From positions 372,001 to 436,000 of the forward strand of contig NZ_JAAAGB010000004.1 of the NCBI RefSeq assembly GCF_010586825.1: a DNA stretch of 64,000 bases, written 5' to 3'. Positions 1,157 to 10,026 of the stretch are shown in pieces. Within the stretch, counting starts at the first letter, position 1, and each line of letters starts with the position of its first letter. Both the position numbers and the translations under genes were made by a program. The notes below the pieces were generated by a model that was not told where the DNA came from, made no database searches, and saw only the letters and a program-made list of their open reading frames with translations. This stretch comes from Draconibacterium mangrovi (GTDB lineage Bacteria; Bacteroidota; Bacteroidia; Bacteroidales; Prolixibacteraceae).

Positions 1157-1516
1157 ATGAAAAGAAAAGTATATTACCTGTCCACCTGCGATACCTGCAA
1201 ACGTATAATGAAAGCAATAAACGTTGACGATAGTTTTGAGAAGCAGGATATTAAAACCGATCCAATCACAGAGGAACAGGTTGAAAGCCTGTACGCTTTT
1301 ACTAAAAGCTACGAAGCACTGATAAATAAACGAGCCCGGAAATTAAAAGCTGCTCTGGAAGCCAATCCCGTTAAATCCGATGCCGATTACAAAAAACTGT
1401 TGCTAAGGGATTACACTTTTCTGAAACGCCCGGTATTTGAAATCGACGGAAAACATTTTGTTGGAAATGCCGCCAAAACTGTGGCGGAAGTTAAAGCGGC
1501 TTTAGCAAAAGAATAG
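1157..1516 (+). CDS. ArsC/Spx-family thioredoxin-fold protein
   Basis: A 119-residue protein beginning MKRKVYYLSTCDTCKR. The redox motif C-x-x-C (STCDTC, about residues 10-13) sits after the first beta strand, as in Spx and YffB-type ArsC relatives. A later arginine and the R-P-V-F-E-I-D-G-K-H-F-V-G segment match the ArsC-family C-terminal half. Longer in-frame starts exist upstream, but the ATG at 1157 puts the first beta strand at the N-terminus as in the family. It is probably a thiol reductase or an Spx-like protein; arsenate reduction is not implied, because no arsenic genes lie nearby. Confidence 0.75.
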   Translation: MKRKVYYLSTCDTCKRIMKAINVDDSFEKQDIKTDPITEEQVESLYAFTKSYEALINKRARKLKAALEANPVKSDADYKKLLLRDYTFLKRPVFEIDGKHFVGNAAKTVAEVKAALAKE

Positions 1517-1527
1517 TCAATTAAGAC

Positions 1528-1770
1528 AATCCCTTTGGGGAGCACGATTATTCCCTTGGTAAGAAAGACAATTCCCTTGTCCTTCATAGATATTCCCTAA
1601 GTAATCGAAACAATCCCTTAGGTAATATCTATGGTTCCCTTGGGTAAAGACATAATTCCCCTGGGTATAATAGATATTCCCTAGGGTACAGGAGTAATCC
1701 CATAGGGAATATCTATGATTCCTTAGGGTAGAAGAATAATTTCCTCGGGTAGAATGGTTATACCCTGATT
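1528..1770. repeat. Degenerate 21-bp tandem repeat, about 12 units
   Basis: The core AWTCCCtwGGGTA recurs with its CCC at about 1531, 1553, 1574, 1595, 1615, 1637, 1658, 1679 and 1699, and with weaker copies near 1721, 1743 and 1763. Spacing is 20-22 bp. The core is quasi-palindromic (TTCCCtTGGGTAA). Linkers between cores alternate among similar strings such as TAGATAT and AATATCTATG. Twenty-one bp is seven codons; on the minus strand some units read L-P-K-G-I, but stop codons occur in all long frames, so it is not coding as it stands. Confidence 0.8.
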
Positions 1771-1895: not shown

Positions 1896-2029
1896 GTTAA
1901 CGGTTGGTACATGTTGTCGGGGCGGATTTCGGAGAGCGTTCCTGTCCGGCAGGACGGAACGATGTTGCGAGAATCTAGCGTACGACACACCAAGAACCCC
2001 GCAATGCAATTTACAATTTGTTATGCCAC
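1896..2029 (-). other. attC-like site at the 3' end of cassette B
   Basis: Read on the minus strand, the site begins directly after the stop of the gene at 2031-3413 with GTGGCATAAC (2020-2029) and runs through ATTGCGGGG. It ends with CCCCGACAACATG and CCAACC-GTTAAC (about 1896-1918). The order of boxes (AAC core, A/T-rich arm, GCGGGG, variable loop, CCCCG, CCAACC, GTTA) is the same as in the site at 3433-3628. The R''-like core is the perfect complement of GTTATGCCAC at the other end of the same gene unit. Assignment as attC is inference from this architecture. Confidence 0.5.
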
Positions 2030-2030
2030 G

Positions 2031-3413
2031 TTATTTTTTATTGTTTAATCGAGCAATCATTTTTAAGTTTTCAAAATTCCCTTTACTAAATGGATTTGAG
2101 TAATCTTCAATTCTGTCAATTGCTGATGAGTCATTTAGTACTTCATTAATAATCTTCAACTGTTTATCAAGTTTATCTTTTAAGGGCAAAGTCTCAGCTT
2201 TAATTTTCTCTAATTCAAATAAATCTTTTTCAATTTGTTTCGATTTTTTAATGATATCTGTTTCGATTCTCTTTAATCTTTCCCATTTGTCGGTTGACAA
2301 TTCATCAGGTTTGTTTTTTAGTTCAGTGCCAAACAATACATTGTTTAACTCATCTCTTAGTAGCTCATTTTGAAGTTTTAGTTTTTCAAGGTTTCTAAAC
2401 TTTTGTAGAAATGCAGTATATTTTTCCCAATCATTCTCATTAATGATTTCAGGCTTTCTGCTATTCAACAATTCTGATATTTTATCTATATCACTATAAT
2501 CACTCACATTAAAAATACATGACGTAACGTAGGCTCGACTTATCAATGAAATGATTTCTTCCCACGCATCTTCATCTATGTTTTTAGGTCTTTTAAGAGA
2601 AAGATACTTATCACTTTTCCAGTTGTAGCTTTGGTAAATATCTTCGGAGATTGACAATTTCATTTTTTTTTGTGAAGCTAATTTCAGTTTAATCCATTCA
2701 TCATCTGTTATAAATTTTTGTTTGTCTGTATTTAAAATTTGATAACAAAGTGAATTAACTAGATTGATTGAGTAGTCATTATCAAAAACATATTTGATTG
2801 AATCTTCCCTGAATTTTTTCCATTTATCTATCGGGACATACCACGGTTTTGACTTTCTAAGAATTTCATCATAAGGCTTGTAATTAACTCTTGATGCAAC
2901 TGAGTCAATTGCTAATTTTCTAATTCCAAAAATTGATAAAATCAGATATAATAAGAGTACACCCAAAGAAATAAATCCAATTGAATTGTTTGAAGCTAAT
3001 GCTGGTTTTGCAGAGCCTTTTGAATGTTTTATGTCTAATTCGTTCACGGTTATTCCATTGCCAGAGGATTTAAAGATTATTTTAACATTTCCTTCTGGTG
3101 GTATTTGTGGGTATAAAATTTCCAATGTGCTTTTATTCTGTGATACAATAATTGAATCAGAAGAAGTTACTTTTTGAATATAATAATCAAGCACATTAGT
3201 GTTAATCTTTATAATAATTCTTTGTAATTCGACGTCACCAGTATTGAGTAGTTCAAGTTGCTGAATGCTTTCAGTTTCATTGCCATCAAAAAGGTTTGTT
3301 GGAATCCTGTCAGACACAACATATCTAAGTTCTGTTTTATCATCAAAAAAGTACTTAGTTATTAATCCCCCAATAACTATTAATACAATTCCAGCTATTA
3401 TCGAATTTTTCAT
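2031..3413 (-). CDS. Cassette B protein: two-TM membrane protein with W-motif repeats and coiled coil
   Basis: No family recognised. The 460 residues comprise a TM segment at about 4-23, an extracytoplasmic region at 25-140 likely to be a beta-sandwich, a second TM at about 145-164, and a long, probably cytoplasmic, helical region. That region holds five loosely spaced copies of a short motif, roughly [I/L]-x-x-[D/E]-x-W-[E/K/I], with tryptophans at W198, W240, W284, W329 and W377. A charged heptad-like coiled coil spans about 340-420. The DNA is clearly more AT-rich than the flanking core genes. The stop codon abuts the attC-like site and the start lies about 20 bp from the other boundary repeat, as in integron cassettes. 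Function unknown. Confidence 0.8.
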   Translation of the reverse strand: MKNSIIAGIVLIVIGGLITKYFFDDKTELRYVVSDRIPTNLFDGNETESIQQLELLNTGDVELQRIIIKINTNVLDYYIQKVTSSDSIIVSQNKSTLEILYPQIPPEGNVKIIFKSSGNGITVNELDIKHSKGSAKPALASNNSIGFISLGVLLLYLILSIFGIRKLAIDSVASRVNYKPYDEILRKSKPWYVPIDKWKKFREDSIKYVFDNDYSINLVNSLCYQILNTDKQKFITDDEWIKLKLASQKKMKLSISEDIYQSYNWKSDKYLSLKRPKNIDEDAWEEIISLISRAYVTSCIFNVSDYSDIDKISELLNSRKPEIINENDWEKYTAFLQKFRNLEKLKLQNELLRDELNNVLFGTELKNKPDELSTDKWERLKRIETDIIKKSKQIEKDLFELEKIKAETLPLKDKLDKQLKIINEVLNDSSAIDRIEDYSNPFSKGNFENLKMIARLNNKK

Positions 3414-3432
3414 AATCGGTCTATTTTATAAT

Positions 3433-3628
3433 GTGGCATAACGGTTTGGCTATGTGGAGTGCGGGACTTTGAAATGCTTCACAGTCAGGCTGCCACTGAG
3501 CCAATTTGTTTATTCATATTTTAGTTTTTATAGCCAAATCGTCAAAGACGAATGGTCGGTATTGCAACGGAGAATTGCGGTTGGATTACCCACTGTACCC
3601 CGCATTACATATAGCTTTTGTTGGCGGT
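3433..3628 (-). other. attC-like site between the two gene cassettes
   Basis: On the minus strand it starts with ACCGCCAAC (3620-3628), 12 bp after the stop of the 3641-4987 gene, and continues through CTATATGTAATGCGGGG. After a loop of more than 120 bp it returns through TCCCGCACTCCACATAGC and CCAAACC to GTTATGCCAC (3433-3442), 20 bp before the start of the next gene. The two inner arms pair imperfectly: 14 of 18 positions match between GGCTATGTGGAGTGCGGG and the complement of the far arm. ACCGCCAAC is complementary to the start of the upstream cassette, and GTTATGCCAC to the end of the downstream one. This is the pairing rule of integron cassettes. Confidence 0.55.
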
Positions 3629-3640
3629 TCGTTATTTTAC

Positions 3641-4987
3641 TCAATCATTTGCACTAATAAGTTTAATAAATCCAAAAATTAATATTGTTGATATAGAAAA
3701 AGTGAATAAAAAACCAATCGGAGAAGGATTCTCAAGTTTAAATAAATAATGAACTGGATTGATGACCAACCACGCTGCTAAAAAAGATAGTGAAAAGAAA
3801 AACAAATTCATTATTATTGATATAGTTAAACTTCGGTAGGAAACTAGTACTTCATTTTTTGAGCCAAATAGCGAAGAGAAAGCTGTATTAATTGAAAATG
3901 GTGAGCTACTAAATTCTTTCCATTTTCGGTATGACAACATTGTCATTAACCATAACATTATAGGAAGAAAAATACAATATATTAAGAAAAATATCCATTC
4001 ATAAACGGTTGTTGTCCAGAAGTCTTCACTAATCCAAAGTTCTGCTGTAAAAAGAACGATATTGTAAACTAATCTATAAATAAGTAAGGATAAAACAATA
4101 AGGATAGAAGTTCGAACCAGCCTAAGTACTATTAGTAAAGTACGAATTATTGTATCTTTAATAAGAGAAAAAACTTGTTCAAATATAATTACTAGAATCT
4201 GCCTAACTAAATCACCCGCAGTAAGTATTCCTCCACCAATTATCTTAAAAAAATTCTCTATGCTGTTAATTATTATTTCAAAGGGAGAAGCTCCTGTATG
4301 TAATTTGCTATTTGGGAAAATAAACGGTTTTACTTTTAGTTCTTTGATTAATGAAGCAGAGATTGAAACGATGGATACTAATCCAAGTATTACTGCTACA
4401 ATTGCACTCCTATATTCGTAGATGATTTCTAAATAATAAAATAATTTATTTAAAACTTCCTTAATAAAGCTATGATTGATTAATCCAATTATTATGGGTA
4501 ACGAGTAGTATAACAAAGTCAGACTTATGCTTACTATCATAGACAAAACAATCCAAAAGGAGCCTTTATTCAATTTGTTTAAATATACGGCATCTTTAAA
4601 ACCAAGATTTATTGAACTAATAATAGGTATTAGCAGGATTAATACTGACACTATTATTAATAGTTTCTCAATATTCATAAAATATTGTGGTGCATTTTTA
4701 TCAATTAATACTGATGTAATAATCATGGAAGGAATTAGGAGCATTAATGCTTTTGTTAATTCATTTGGTCTATTTCTTAAAATGAATATGACTATTAACC
4801 AAATTCCAATTCCAAAAACAGGTAAAAGTAAGTCTACAAAATTTAAGGGACGCAAGTAATAGATTATCAACAGTAATAACGAAAATATTAAGTAAGGCAC
4901 ATATGGTCTTTTCATAAAACTCCTACCACATTTTGGACAAATAGTGTCCAATTCACAATTCGTTACATGTCCGCAATTTAGTTTCAT
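3641..4987 (-). CDS. Cassette A protein: zinc-ribbon polytopic membrane protein
   Basis: No family recognised. The 448-residue protein begins with a small zinc-ribbon-like module: C5-G-H7, C11, C17-P-K-C20-G. About ten strongly hydrophobic segments follow from residue 30 to the C-terminus. A soluble-looking stretch with K-P-F-I-F-P-N-S-K-L lies near the middle. The codon use is very AT-rich compared with the core genes on either side. The gene is bracketed by the perfect 9-bp inverted pair GTTGGCGGT (3620-3628) and ACCGCCAAC (5006-5014). A membrane sensor or transport role is possible but not shown. Confidence 0.8.
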   Translation of the reverse strand: MKLNCGHVTNCELDTICPKCGRSFMKRPYVPYLIFSLLLLIIYYLRPLNFVDLLLPVFGIGIWLIVIFILRNRPNELTKALMLLIPSMIITSVLIDKNAPQYFMNIEKLLIIVSVLILLIPIISSINLGFKDAVYLNKLNKGSFWIVLSMIVSISLTLLYYSLPIIIGLINHSFIKEVLNKLFYYLEIIYEYRSAIVAVILGLVSIVSISASLIKELKVKPFIFPNSKLHTGASPFEIIINSIENFFKIIGGGILTAGDLVRQILVIIFEQVFSLIKDTIIRTLLIVLRLVRTSILIVLSLLIYRLVYNIVLFTAELWISEDFWTTTVYEWIFFLIYCIFLPIMLWLMTMLSYRKWKEFSSSPFSINTAFSSLFGSKNEVLVSYRSLTISIIMNLFFFSLSFLAAWLVINPVHYLFKLENPSPIGFLFTFSISTILIFGFIKLISAND

Positions 4988-5454
4988 ATTTTTGTTTTTA
5001 TAATGACCGCCAACGTATGTGTAAGTGTATTACACATACATCGCTTATAGCATAAGTTTTTAAATTTTGTATAAATCGTATTTTCCTGGGGCGCGCTCCA
5101 CTGCTTTGAATCTTCTTCCTGTGTCGCCGGGTGAAAAGGTCGAATAAAAATAGAAATAAATACTATGTAAACCAAACAGGGAGCGTAAAACTGCTTAATT
5201 GTATTTGGAGCAAGGGCAGGAAGCTATATTTGAAAGTGAAAACAATTCTGATGAATATCCTGAATGCCGATGATTTCCGGCTCCTTTTGTAAGCTACTCT
5301 ATACATAAAAATAACTTTTGAAGGGGTAGGTAAAATGACCAATATTCAATAACGAATATCCAATGCAGAACAAGGCAAAACGTATCAATCTGCAGTTGAT
5401 TTGGATATCGTTTATTCAGATTTTGCTATTGGCCTTCAGAGGACTATCAAAAAA

Positions 5455-5489
5455 AAAGGAAGCAAACTTCCTATCGAAGTGCTTCCTTT
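5455..5489 (-). terminator. Hairpin with flanking A-run, minus-strand terminator candidate
   Basis: AAAGGAAGC pairs with GCTTCCTTT and ACTTC with GAAGT, with a two-base bulge. The run of A on the left gives a U-tract on minus-strand RNA. It may be a second terminator for the M1 peptidase gene. Confidence 0.55.
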
Positions 5490-5594
5490 CTGATTTATTT
5501 AAATCGCGGTTAGGATTATACAAATTGTAATTTAAAATGGCCTGTGGAAAATTTTACATATTACAATTGTTAATGCCGATAGACTGAAAAAGGA

Positions 5595-5610
5595 GTCCCG
5601 ACTTCGGGAC
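5595..5610 (-). terminator. Terminator of the M1 peptidase gene
   Basis: GTCCCG and CGGGAC form a tight stem 24 bp past the peptidase stop codon. The minus-strand RNA continues into a U-rich run (complement of 5585-5592). Confidence 0.65.
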
Positions 5611-5633
5611 GACATTTTTGAAGCTAATCGGTA

Positions 5634-7952
5634 TTATTTTTTTGCCTTTTGCATGGGGTTTTCGCCACCTCCGGAGTATCGGCCACTGCCATATCTTGAT
5701 TTGTACAATTCGAAACGGGTTGGCTGTCTACGCTCGGGCCAGTAGTTGTTGTTCAAATCGGTGTCGGCAGTTTCGCGGTAAGGGTCGAGGATAATTTGCT
5801 CCACTTCTTTGCTAAACATAAACACCTTAGATACCTCTTCGTTGTTTTTCCGCCAAATTTCGGCAGGAATGTACTGAAGCTCTTCTGTTCCGTCGGTAAA
5901 TTCAAATTTCAGGATCACCGGCATTACCAGTCCGCCCAAATTCTTAAAGTCGATCTGGTAGAAGTTCAGGTTGGCACCCAGCAATTCTTTTTCTTCCTTG
6001 CTCAGGCTTTTTACAAACCGATCGTACTCCTCTTTATCTTCTTTGGTTACTTTGTATTCGTCGTAGGTGGTATAAAAATCTGCAGCTTCAGGGTTTTTAG
6101 CCCTGTAGGTTTCATTGGCAAATGCTTTGTTGCGCATGGTGGTAATGGAAATAGCTGCCTCTTCGTCAGTGGCTTTTTTTAGTGGTTTTTCCACTTCAGG
6201 ATCTTGGGTATTGGCCTGGTACCATTTTACGTTCTCCATCGAAATATCGCAGTGGTCGGTGGTAAAAAACCATCCGCGCCAGAACCAGTCCAAATCAACT
6301 CCCGAGGCATCTTCCATGGTACGGAAGAAATCGGCAGGAGTAGGGTGTTTAAACATCCAGCGTTGTGCATATTCTTTAAAAGCATAGTCGAACAGTTCGC
6401 GGCCCATAACAGTTTCGCGCAAAATATTCAGTGCCGTACTTGGTTTGGCGTAAGCATTGCTACCCAGGTTCCAAACCGACTCGGAGTTGGTCATTACCGG
6501 CGAAATAAATTTCTTGTCGCCACTCATATAAGGAACAATGTTGGCTGCTACTCCGCGCGACGACGGGTAACCGGGTTCCCATTCCTGTTCGGTTAATAAC
6601 TGTACAAATGTATTTAATCCTTCGTCCATCCAGGTCCACTGGCGTTCGTCGGAGTTTACGATCATCGGGAAGAAGTTGTGTCCCACTTCGTGAATGATAA
6701 CACCGATCATTCCGTATTTGGTGCGTTTGCTGTAAGTACCGTCGCTTTCGGGGCGGCCACCGTTAAAACAAATCATCGGGTATTCCATTCCAATGCGGTC
6801 GGTGTGTACCGAAATGGCTACCGGGTAGGGGTAATCGAAAGTGAATTTCGAGTAGGTTTTTACAGTATGCGCTACCACGCGTGTTGAGTATTGCTCCCAC
6901 AGCGGGTTCCCTTCTTTGGGGTAATACGACATGGCCATTACGGTGCGTTCGCCAAATTTTACGGCCATCGCATCCCAGATAAATTTACGCGAGCTGGCAA
7001 AAGCAAAGTCGCGTACATTTTCGGCTTTAAATACCCATGTTTTTTCTTTTTTTACTTTTCCTTTCTCAGCCTTCAGTGCATCTTCAGGAGATACAATAAA
7101 AACAGGATCTTCCGTATCGGCTTTTGCTTTTTCAAAACGATCGATCTGTTCCTGAGTCAATACCTCGTCGGTGTTCTGAAGAACTCCGGTTGCACCCACC
7201 ACGTGGTCGGCCGGAACGGTAAGACTCACTTCAAAATCGCCAAAGGGCAGGGTAAACTCGCCTGTTCCGAGGAACTGTTTGTGTTGCCAGCCTTCCACTT
7301 CGTTATAAACGGCCATACGCGGGTAAAACTGAGCAATGGTATAAATGTAGTTGTCTTCGTTTTTAAAATATTCGTAACCCGAACGGCCACCATCAGTTAG
7401 GCGGTCGTTAATGTTGTACCACCATTTTACTTTAAAAGTGAAAGATTCGCCCGGTTTTAAAGTTTCGGGTAAATCAACACGCATCATGGTTTTATTAATG
7501 GTTGCCGGCAAATCGTTTCCATCGGCATCCTGCACGTAATCCAGTTTAAAACCACCATCAAAATCGTACATCATGCGTTTCAACTGGCCAAATGAAACAC
7601 GCTGATTTAATCCTGAAGTCATTGTTTTGTAGGTGTCCGAATCCTTTGCACGCATATTCTGGTCGAGCTGCAACCATAAATATTTCAGAATGTCGGGCGA
7701 CTGGTTGTGGTAGGTAATGGTTTCTTCGCCATAAATTCGCTGGGTTTCGTCGTCCAGCCTGATGTTCATTTTGTAATCGGCCTTTTGTTGCCAGTACTCG
7801 TGCCCCGGTGCCCCCGATGCGGTACGGTAAACATTAGGTGTTGCCAACTCTTGTTTTAACTGCCTGAACTTATTCAGGTTAATGTTTTCCTGAGCCAGCG
7901 AAACGGCACAGGCAGATACAAAAAAGGTAATAAAAAGTGCTAATTTTTTCAT
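5634..7952 (-). CDS. M1-family (gluzincin) metallopeptidase, secreted
   Basis: 772 residues with a signal peptide (residues 1 to about 20, ending S-L-A-Q). The zinc site is H421-E-V-G-H425 with the third ligand E444 in W-M-D-E-G-L-N-T-F. That is the HEXXH-X18-E spacing of M1 aminopeptidases. The N-terminal half is the usual beta-rich bowl domain (W-L-Q-L-D-Q-N near residue 93). The canonical GAMEN substrate loop is not obvious; G-M-E-Y-P occupies its place. Likely a periplasmic or surface peptidase. Followed by a hairpin terminator. The neighbouring HupE-like and DUF6702 genes may form a functional group with it. Confidence 0.92.
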   Translation of the reverse strand: MKKLALFITFFVSACAVSLAQENINLNKFRQLKQELATPNVYRTASGAPGHEYWQQKADYKMNIRLDDETQRIYGEETITYHNQSPDILKYLWLQLDQNMRAKDSDTYKTMTSGLNQRVSFGQLKRMMYDFDGGFKLDYVQDADGNDLPATINKTMMRVDLPETLKPGESFTFKVKWWYNINDRLTDGGRSGYEYFKNEDNYIYTIAQFYPRMAVYNEVEGWQHKQFLGTGEFTLPFGDFEVSLTVPADHVVGATGVLQNTDEVLTQEQIDRFEKAKADTEDPVFIVSPEDALKAEKGKVKKEKTWVFKAENVRDFAFASSRKFIWDAMAVKFGERTVMAMSYYPKEGNPLWEQYSTRVVAHTVKTYSKFTFDYPYPVAISVHTDRIGMEYPMICFNGGRPESDGTYSKRTKYGMIGVIIHEVGHNFFPMIVNSDERQWTWMDEGLNTFVQLLTEQEWEPGYPSSRGVAANIVPYMSGDKKFISPVMTNSESVWNLGSNAYAKPSTALNILRETVMGRELFDYAFKEYAQRWMFKHPTPADFFRTMEDASGVDLDWFWRGWFFTTDHCDISMENVKWYQANTQDPEVEKPLKKATDEEAAISITTMRNKAFANETYRAKNPEAADFYTTYDEYKVTKEDKEEYDRFVKSLSKEEKELLGANLNFYQIDFKNLGGLVMPVILKFEFTDGTEELQYIPAEIWRKNNEEVSKVFMFSKEVEQIILDPYRETADTDLNNNYWPERRQPTRFELYKSRYGSGRYSGGGENPMQKAKK

Positions 7953-9296: not shown

Positions 9297-9677
9297 ATGA
9301 ATCCATTAGCCATTATTGGTGCATTTGTAATAACCCTGTCGTTTCTGGCCTACGGCGTTGGAAGCATTTCATTGGTGCGATTCAGAATTGTTGGACGAAT
9401 TGTAGTTACCTTTTTGTCGATAGGCGTAGTACTGGATATTGTTGCAATAACTTTAATGGTTTTGGGCTCAAAGGGATCTCCCTTTACCTTGCACGGTTTT
9501 CTTGGTGCAACAGCGTTTTTAGTCATGTTGGTGGAGGCAATATGGTGTTGGAAAATGTATATTGCCGAAGGTCGCGACAGCAAGGCACATAAAACGCATA
9601 TTATTTATACAAAAACCGCTTATTTATTTTGGGTAGTGGCTTATTTTACGGGAAGTTTAATAGTAATTTGGAGGTGA
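9297..9677 (+). CDS. Small four-TM membrane protein (TIGR03987/HsmA-like)
   Basis: 126 residues with four hydrophobic segments at about 5-25, 32-57, 66-86 and 104-125. The motif F-T-L-H-G-F-L-G-A near residue 62 and basic H-K-T-H near residue 100 recall the TIGR03987 membrane family. That assignment is from memory and weak. The stop codon is one base before the start of the SUI1-domain gene, so the two are translationally close and probably co-transcribed. Confidence 0.65.
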
Positions 9678-9678
9678 T

Positions 9679-10026
9679 ATGTCGAATAATGACTGGAAAG
9701 AACGATTAGGAGTGGTGTTTTCAACCAATCCTGATTTTAACTACGATAAAGACGAACAGGAAGAGCAGGACACCTTAGCTGCCAATCAACAGGATTTGCG
9801 GGTAATGCTGGATCGGAAAAAACGAAAAGGCAAAGCGGTAACGCTTATAACCGGTTTTGTTGGATCAGAAGACGACCTGAAAGAACTGGGTAAAAAACTT
9901 AAATCGAAATGTGGGGTAGGCGGTACTGTTAAAGATGGCGAAATCCTTATTCAGGGCGACTTTTGCCAACGTATTATCGAGCTGCTTAAAGCTGATGGTT
10001 ATAAAGTAAAACGATCAGGTGGTTAA
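9679..10026 (+). CDS. SUI1/eIF1-like translation factor (YciH family)
   Basis: 115 residues. An acidic N-terminal tail (about residues 1-45) is followed by a compact SUI1 domain: [11 protein letters not shown], then [21 protein letters not shown]. The cysteine-glycine turn and basic loop are typical. In archaea and eukaryotes the domain monitors start-codon choice on the small ribosomal subunit; the bacterial role is less clear. A bidirectional terminator follows. Confidence 0.88.

Follow-up and report, generated by a model that had tools for sequence, protein, structure and literature searches.

The window analyzed here, a 64,000-nucleotide (nt) stretch of the Draconibacterium mangrovi genome (contig NZ_JAAAGB010000004.1, positions 372,001 to 436,000), carries a minus-strand locus laid out as an attI-like inverted repeat, a cassette, a site, a second cassette and a second site, that is, as two cassettes at a platform site. 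We conclude that this locus is very probably a two-cassette array of a Bacteroidota integron-like system run by a dedicated tyrosine recombinase. Our confidence is high for the cassette system, good for the recombinase as its enzyme and moderate for the details of the mechanism.

The two minus-strand genes that a first-pass annotation had read as integron-like cassettes (2031-3413 and 3641-4987), and the four boundary words around them, are located exactly as it described. The gene at 2031-3413 is enclosed by the complementary words GTTATGCCAC (2020-2029) and GTGGCATAAC (3433-3442), and the gene at 3641-4987 by GTTGGCGGT (3620-3628) and ACCGCCAAC (5006-5014). In the numbering used here (Table 1), the open reading frame (ORF) at 3641-4987 belongs to cassette 1 and that at 2031-3413 to cassette 2. 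The ends of cassette 2 pair over 10 bp, followed by an A.C mismatch and then TTAT/ATAA, and those of cassette 1 over 9 bp, followed by an offset variant of the same design. Neither ORF protein scores over the cut-off of any Pfam or NCBIfam family, and scans of the window with Rfam (curated thresholds) and for tRNAs returned no match.

The complementarity of cassette ends extends well beyond the window. We gathered 121 sites lying between cassettes with paired ends, 66 of them non-redundant at their ends, and aligned 53 (107-121 nt). The resulting covariance model, R1, holds only AAC, the site and GTT, so that of the end boxes it contains only GTT/AAC. Consecutive R1 sites bound 202 cassettes, 196 of them distinct; of the two window cassettes, only cassette 2 has a model match at each border and is counted among them. 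Ends are complementary at 9/9 positions in 172 of these 196 cassettes (shuffled mean 2.6, maximum 9, over 1000 shuffles), and in 113/130 when the count is restricted to sites outside model building. End positions 12-14 pair at 0.74-0.85 and chance level is reached from 15 on, for a pairing box of 9-14 bp; position 11 is A in 195/196 cassettes, opposite C in 153. The cassette core reads GTTR(N6)A, and GTTRRRY fits 12 of the 196 cassette starts, in agreement with the earlier remark that the cores depart from this rule. The end words vary from one cassette to another (110 distinct 9-mers among the 196 cassettes). The two boxes standing at one array junction mostly match poorly, most commonly at 5/9. 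Since ends pair within a cassette and junction boxes do not match well, pairing is a property of the cassette that would matter only when its own ends meet, as in a circle.

Two further searches were set aside. A strict end search with the A.C rule gave 192 pairs against 35.2 in shuffled sequence, and this count is unused because many of the pairs stem from repeated units in one locus (L106, G031:C1:6339000-6358999). Units of about 433, 489 and 1657 bp recur several times in that single array, a hint of recent duplication. A first chain finder for cassettes was dropped as too lax, having returned a chain of 12 in one shuffled locus.

The inner arms of the sites covary strongly. Their pairing peaks at an offset of 3, leaving 3 unpaired nt on the left and 6 on the right, and the 16-pair inner-arm structure is paired in 90.9% of 835 cells, compared with 65.4% in shuffled sequences and 29-41% when slid; all 13 variable pairs show two-sided changes. 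R1 matches occur in 52 of 61 relatives (E <= 0.1); of 296 genomes sampled from the Bacteroidota, 145 have one or more (E <= 0.001), site counts being lower bounds in both searches because few candidates were scored per genome. The model located 141 sites in 32 sources and, separately, 135 sites in 34 of the 47 database recombinase loci given to it (out of 80 fetched, the best 80 loci of relatives), with 135/135 on the strand of the recombinase. Across the 296 genomes, recombinase and sites occur together in 67, the recombinase alone in 10, sites alone in 78 and neither in 141 (Fisher p 1e-15). The search for the boundary site proposed at first pass thus returns a site type that recurs through the D. 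mangrovi genome and its relatives and is not confined to the window.

Within the 5.9-Mb genome itself, a single further good copy of the site 1 region (3414-3640), 90% identical, lies on contig C6, and the site 2 region (1885-2040) has 19 further matches (E < 1e-3) on contigs C2, C8, C10, C11, C20, C21 and C24. Among these copies, homology mostly runs out close to a left-hand AAC and a right-hand GTT. In the C2 array, four successive cassettes each carry their own 10-bp complementary end words. Single partial matches to the site type are also dispersed in this genome (L047 8253-8287, L049 7862-7900 and L048 7427-7460).

Comparison with relatives shows that different genes occupy the same slot, as the first-pass annotation had asked. 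In the sister genome G002, the sequence of the window is matched exactly over the 54 bases that precede the first GTT, and the right flank is 88% identical, resuming at GTTAACAACAAAAA within a common right-border sequence, GTTAACAACAAAAA(C/T)AACC... Between these flanks a single cassette (GTTAGCTGCC...GGCAGCTAAC) with two small ORFs replaces the two cassettes of the window, with breaks at the GTT borders and no extra bases there. The sister genomes G003 and G036 share 98.1% identity over 3523 bp through recombinase and platform, stopping at the first GTT; past it both read GTTA and then diverge, with no further match between the 20.0- and 15.8-kb pieces. By sequence comparison, both differences are what cassette exchange at one fixed insertion point would leave. 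The opposite pattern, the same genes with the same flanks throughout, was not seen, because neither window gene was found in the 60 genomes other than its own (1/61 each, E <= 1e-10). In Draconibacterium orientale the conserved blocks of both sides lie 532 nt apart, against 3.9 kb in the window, and no site was found at that slot or in the peptidase neighbourhoods of nine further genomes (loci L202-L208 and L216-L218 for the ten genomes together). The exact joined word of an empty platform was not found among the loci examined.

The observation that no integrase is in view is right for the window, whose platform has no recombinase gene; a search for recombinase remnants between the peptidase gene and the platform (window 5000-5700) gave a best E of only 1.8. 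The same genome encodes an array-heading recombinase on contig C6, a tyrosine recombinase of 378 aa. A cassette whose ends are self-complementary over 10 bp starts 92 nt behind it, the site type of the window comes next, and there the contig ends; the C6 copy of site 1 lies after this recombinase, bordered by other cassettes. In G008 and G013, the peptidase gene flanking the array of the window is followed by a recombinase at about 1.0-1.3 kb. Homologues of the C6 enzyme occur in 36 of the 61 genomes, its own included (E <= 1e-60), and the best 80 loci of relatives are mostly from Bacteroidota, one of them in D. orientale, where an array of about 35 kb follows the recombinase. That cassettes and sites are real and served by an enzyme other than the adjacent recombinase, such as XerC/XerD or another tyrosine recombinase, the adjacency having some other cause, is improbable. 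The genome does contain 12 tyrosine-recombinase matches over the Pfam cut-off, and 78 genomes have sites with no close recombinase homologue, but recombinase and array adjoin in distant families, the two co-occur over genomes, and in G003/G036 the array is replaced exactly after recombinase and platform.

The tyrosine recombinase that the first-pass annotation recommended looking for does therefore head arrays, and the integron-type insert expected of it is absent. R230, K255, H320, R323, H346 and Y355, the residues of a tyrosine recombinase, are invariant in a 27-sequence alignment. The best NCBIfam match of the C6 enzyme is NF040815 (recomb_XerA_Arch), at 223 bits just above the 220-bit cut-off, and its score with the IntI model is 210.6 bits against a cut-off of 265. 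Alignment with IntI4 (PDB) falls into two pieces separated by about 70 residues in IntI4 and about 28 in the C6 enzyme, and the recombinase also lacks a stretch of about 40 residues that IntI1 has between its lysine hairpin and HxxR motif. Among the relatives listed, the TIGR02249 match is likewise split (to about 181 and from about 238) and under cut-off. The recombinase thus has no IntI-specific insert around patch III. In PMC9668308 and PMC8138268 the insert is described as specific to IntI and as required for integron recombination; PMC8138268 also notes that its conservation is incomplete even within the integron-like enzymes. The full structure as predicted is nearest to archaeal Xer and IntI4 structures. 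In a tree, the cassette enzymes stand beside IntI as a group of their own at modest support (90/68) that includes six gut Bacteroidales relatives, and two Xer-like enzymes encoded in the same genome branch separately from it. Alphaproteobacterial plasmid recombinases resembling the C6 enzyme (H2 and H3) have transposases or hypothetical genes as neighbours.

A remnant of a canonical integron, that is, a cluster of attC sites lacking integron-integrases (CALIN) in which ordinary attC cassettes have outlived a lost IntI, would share the overall logic of the locus and the missing recombinase of the window, and one canonical IntI is present in a relative of another family, G043. This explanation is very unlikely nonetheless: no IntI scored over the cut-off in the 37 own-genus genomes searched, some of them incomplete, GTTRRRY is found in only 12/196 cores, and the arrays are headed by a different recombinase. 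R1 found nothing on an intI1-bearing plasmid, a weak control. The IntI of G043 (L238, G043:C50:52308-53159) scores over the NCBIfam cut-off, and the same genome has 9 matches of the new site type.

The recombinase of the query type, here called long, has about 85 extra N-terminal residues. Nine of 48 such N-terminal stretches match the Pfam HARP domain PF07443 (best E 2.5e-05), and a Foldseek search with the domain gave no match under 0.001; the extra domain is perhaps HARP-like. In SMARCAL1, HARP serves DNA annealing at forks; our guess is that the N-terminal domain may help to fold or hold the site. A cassette-type recombinase at L232 (17772-19499) has a long N-terminal part similar, by eye, to several extra-domain copies.

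Typical arrays lie on one strand and are headed by a tyrosine recombinase. Where enough sequence is available, the first cassette in many loci begins about 40-170 nt, and up to 455 nt, after the recombinase gene, and many other contigs end directly after that gene. In the loci inspected, the long recombinases are oriented towards the array, and five short recombinases without the extra domain diverge from it (L224, L225, L226, L230 and L231), an integrase diverging from the array being the usual integron layout; the short type also has no IntI insert. At many array heads an inverted repeat can be seen by eye ahead of the first GTT. The longest ORF runs along the array in 229/251 cassettes, with a median coverage of 0.91 and a median start 32 nt past GTT. 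Pfam assigned 127 families to 142 cassette proteins (140 of 205 distinct ones plus the two of the window), the commonest in 4 members, and the phage-defence models KwaB, AbiLi, AriA and DolB match one cassette protein each.

When sites are restored by joining the boxes of their own cassette, the bottom strand is the more stable in 156/167, by a mean difference of 3.8 kcal/mol, compared with 142/167 for boxes as they stand in the array and 100/167 for shuffled controls. The bottom-strand folding anticipated at first pass is therefore borne out for restored sites, and fails for window site 1, whose two strands have equal energies. A.C mismatches are conserved in the R box of 132/167 and in the L box of 102/167 sites (bulged bases were not sought as such), and the greater stability is likely due to these top-strand mismatches becoming T.G wobble pairs below. 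Taken alone, the window sites have only a modest folding advantage over shuffles (site 1: z -2.45 top, -1.80 bottom; site 2: z -1.10 and -1.19 top, -1.46 bottom), the strength of the evidence lying in the comparison across sites. Integron attC sites are described, in a passage of PMC2727003, as recombining as bottom strands marked by extrahelical bases and an unpaired spacer.

Small transposons or elements resembling miniature inverted-repeat transposable elements (MITEs), with terminal inverted repeats, would account for repeats flanking each gene on both ends and are scarcely credible: the 196 cassettes have no single end sequence in common (110 distinct 9-mers), the two cassettes of the window hold no transposase, slot exchange adds no border bases, and the site moving along with each gene is a hairpin whose arms covary. 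Chance, or hairpins serving as terminators or RNA elements between operon genes, agrees with the modest folding advantage of the window and with the lack of any Rfam match at threshold, and is just as hard to credit, since a terminator leaves end complementarity across a whole gene unexplained, the slot is exchanged between genomes, and the better-folding strand is on average not the coding strand.

In the mechanism we propose, the recombinase, which is related to IntI and archaeal XerA and lacks the IntI insert, would excise cassettes as circles and insert the circles at the platform site or between cassettes, the cut probably falling at GTT or beside it. In the circle, the 5′ box of the cassette (GTTRNNNNN-N-A-NNN) would meet its own 3′ box, allowing 9 + 3 bp to pair, and the restored site of about 118 nt would fold as a hairpin with R and L stems and an asymmetric unpaired spacer (3 vs 6 nt). 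Of the two strands, the bottom one would probably serve as substrate, since T.G wobbles replace the conserved top-strand A.C mismatches there. A junction in the linear array would instead hold two boxes from different cassettes, usually a poor match. With no recombinase gene at the platform of the window, the C6 enzyme would have to act on these cassettes in trans. Read by eye, site 2 (1902-2019) is a hybrid, its left TTGTAAATTGC and right ATGTACCAACC arms belonging to different site families and not pairing with each other, and it is perhaps inactive. A second hybrid with arms from different site families lies at L043 7554-7686. Both look as if two sites had recombined by homology with loss of the intervening DNA, and the hybrid last site suggests that cassettes may also be lost by ordinary homologous recombination.

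Several observations weigh against the reading of the locus as a recombinase-driven cassette array. Recombination, circles, use of the bottom strand, the exact cut point and the role of this recombinase as the acting enzyme are inferred from sequence comparison. The 53 model-building sites were first chosen by their paired ends, the choice-free count being 113/130, and the bottom strand wins in 100/167 shuffles, so the strand bias is partly a matter of base composition. Thirteen of the 47 recombinase loci have no R1 match, including L172, whose cassettes appear only by their ends; 78 of the 145 site-bearing genomes have no recombinase at the strict E <= 1e-60, with at most 6 candidates scored, and 10 of the 77 recombinase-bearing genomes have no site. 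Cassettes in the divergent layout have weaker self-complementarity (12/22 at 9/9, against 29/34). Whole cassettes common to different genomes are few, 9 pairs with 2 starting <=12 nt from GTT, and lend weak support to cassette mobility. Five of the six gut Bacteroidales relatives of the recombinase, nested in the cassette group, have no site match in 10 kb downstream (L121, L122, L123, L128 and L141, in Parabacteroides, Bacteroides, Mediterranea and Phocaeicola), which means that the enzyme type is not always tied to cassettes; these relatives are perhaps repurposed.

The system works like an integron, as first claimed, and it is not an integron in the strict IntI sense: the IntI insert is absent and the core is not GTTRRRY, which places it outside the canonical integron class. 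We consider it probable that it represents a phylum-wide, undescribed integron class in which insert-free recombinases act on folded single-stranded sites, the long type aided by a HARP-like annealing domain, as either a pre-insert form or a parallel invention. No description of such a system was found in open-licence PMC papers, a scope that leaves aside preprints and subscription papers. Integrons are reported to be very rare in Bacteroidetes; a 2022 survey states that earlier finds there were all cassette-less In0 elements and adds one complete integron, in Salinibacter ruber (PMC9024848). An integron-like system with at least one site match in about half of the sampled phylum genomes, with many-cassette arrays and some cargo matching phage-defence models, would offer a second natural route for recombining folded single-stranded sites. 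It would thus allow essential IntI features to be told directly from historical ones, and its cassette borders delimit many genes without known function.

The features of the locus and its neighbours are collected in Table 1. The gene at 5634..7952 is presumed from its sequence to encode an M1-type peptidase. Tandem repeats of about 42 and 84 bp with ATTCCCTAGGG-like units lie beside the array (window 1586-1766); G002 carries a similar stretch, and a different repeat stretch lies upstream on contig C6 (L037, about 9560-9740).

Table 1. Features of the two-cassette locus and flanking genes, in window coordinates
Feature	Position	Strand	Description
attI-like platform site	5015..5050	-	inverted repeat GTATGTGTAA-TACAC-TTACACATAC (5039-5015), directly 5′ of the GTT opening cassette 1
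Cassette 1, GTT to end of own site	3443..5014	-	ends GTTGGCGGT/ACCGCCAAC; first after the platform site
ORF of cassette 1	3641..4987	-	448 aa; several membrane stretches by eye; family unassigned
R′ box, cassette 1	5006..5014	-	reads GTTGGCGGT on the minus strand
R″ box, cassette 1	3620..3628	-	reads ACCGCCAAC on the minus strand; complementary to 5006-5014
Inter-cassette site 1	3443..3619	-	177 nt, longer class; R1 match 3440-3622, 56.6 bits, E 7.9e-12
Cassette 2, GTT to end of own site	1902..3442	-	ends GTTATGCCAC/GTGGCATAAC
ORF of cassette 2	2031..3413	-	460 aa; membrane-anchored by eye; family unassigned
R′ box, cassette 2	3433..3442	-	reads GTTATGCCAC on the minus strand
R″ box, cassette 2	2020..2029	-	reads GTGGCATAAC on the minus strand
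Inter-cassette site 2	1902..2019	-	118 nt; R1 match 1899-2022, 64.4 bits, E 7e-14
GTT right border	1899..1901	-	distal platform end; homology with G002 resumes there
Presumed M1-type peptidase gene, left neighbour of platform	5634..7952	-	matched in 18/37 genomes, E <= 1e-150
ArsC-family gene, right neighbour of platform	1157..1516	+	Pfam PF03960

Among known systems, integron arrays with attC sites and IntI are the closest in design, sharing one-gene cassettes in one orientation, covarying folded R″-L″...L′-R′ sites with end boxes of the same cassette that pair, an asymmetric unpaired spacer (3 vs 6 nt), a bottom strand favoured in folding, an insertion point beside the recombinase gene and cassette clusters away from it. 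Unlike IntI, the recombinase has no insert and its long type has an extra N-terminal domain and points into the array; unlike attC, the sites have a GTTR(N6)A core in place of GTTRRRY, a pairing box of 9-14 bp and A.C mismatches as the putative strand mark in place of extrahelical G and T. With archaeal XerA, its best NCBIfam match, and bacterial XerC/D, the enzyme shares a simple catalytic domain without the insert, and neither cassette arrays nor folded sites are known to belong to Xer/dif. The array of the window resembles a CALIN in having no adjoining recombinase gene, and differs from one in retaining a platform site and in that the same peptidase gene has a recombinase as its neighbour in G008 and G013.

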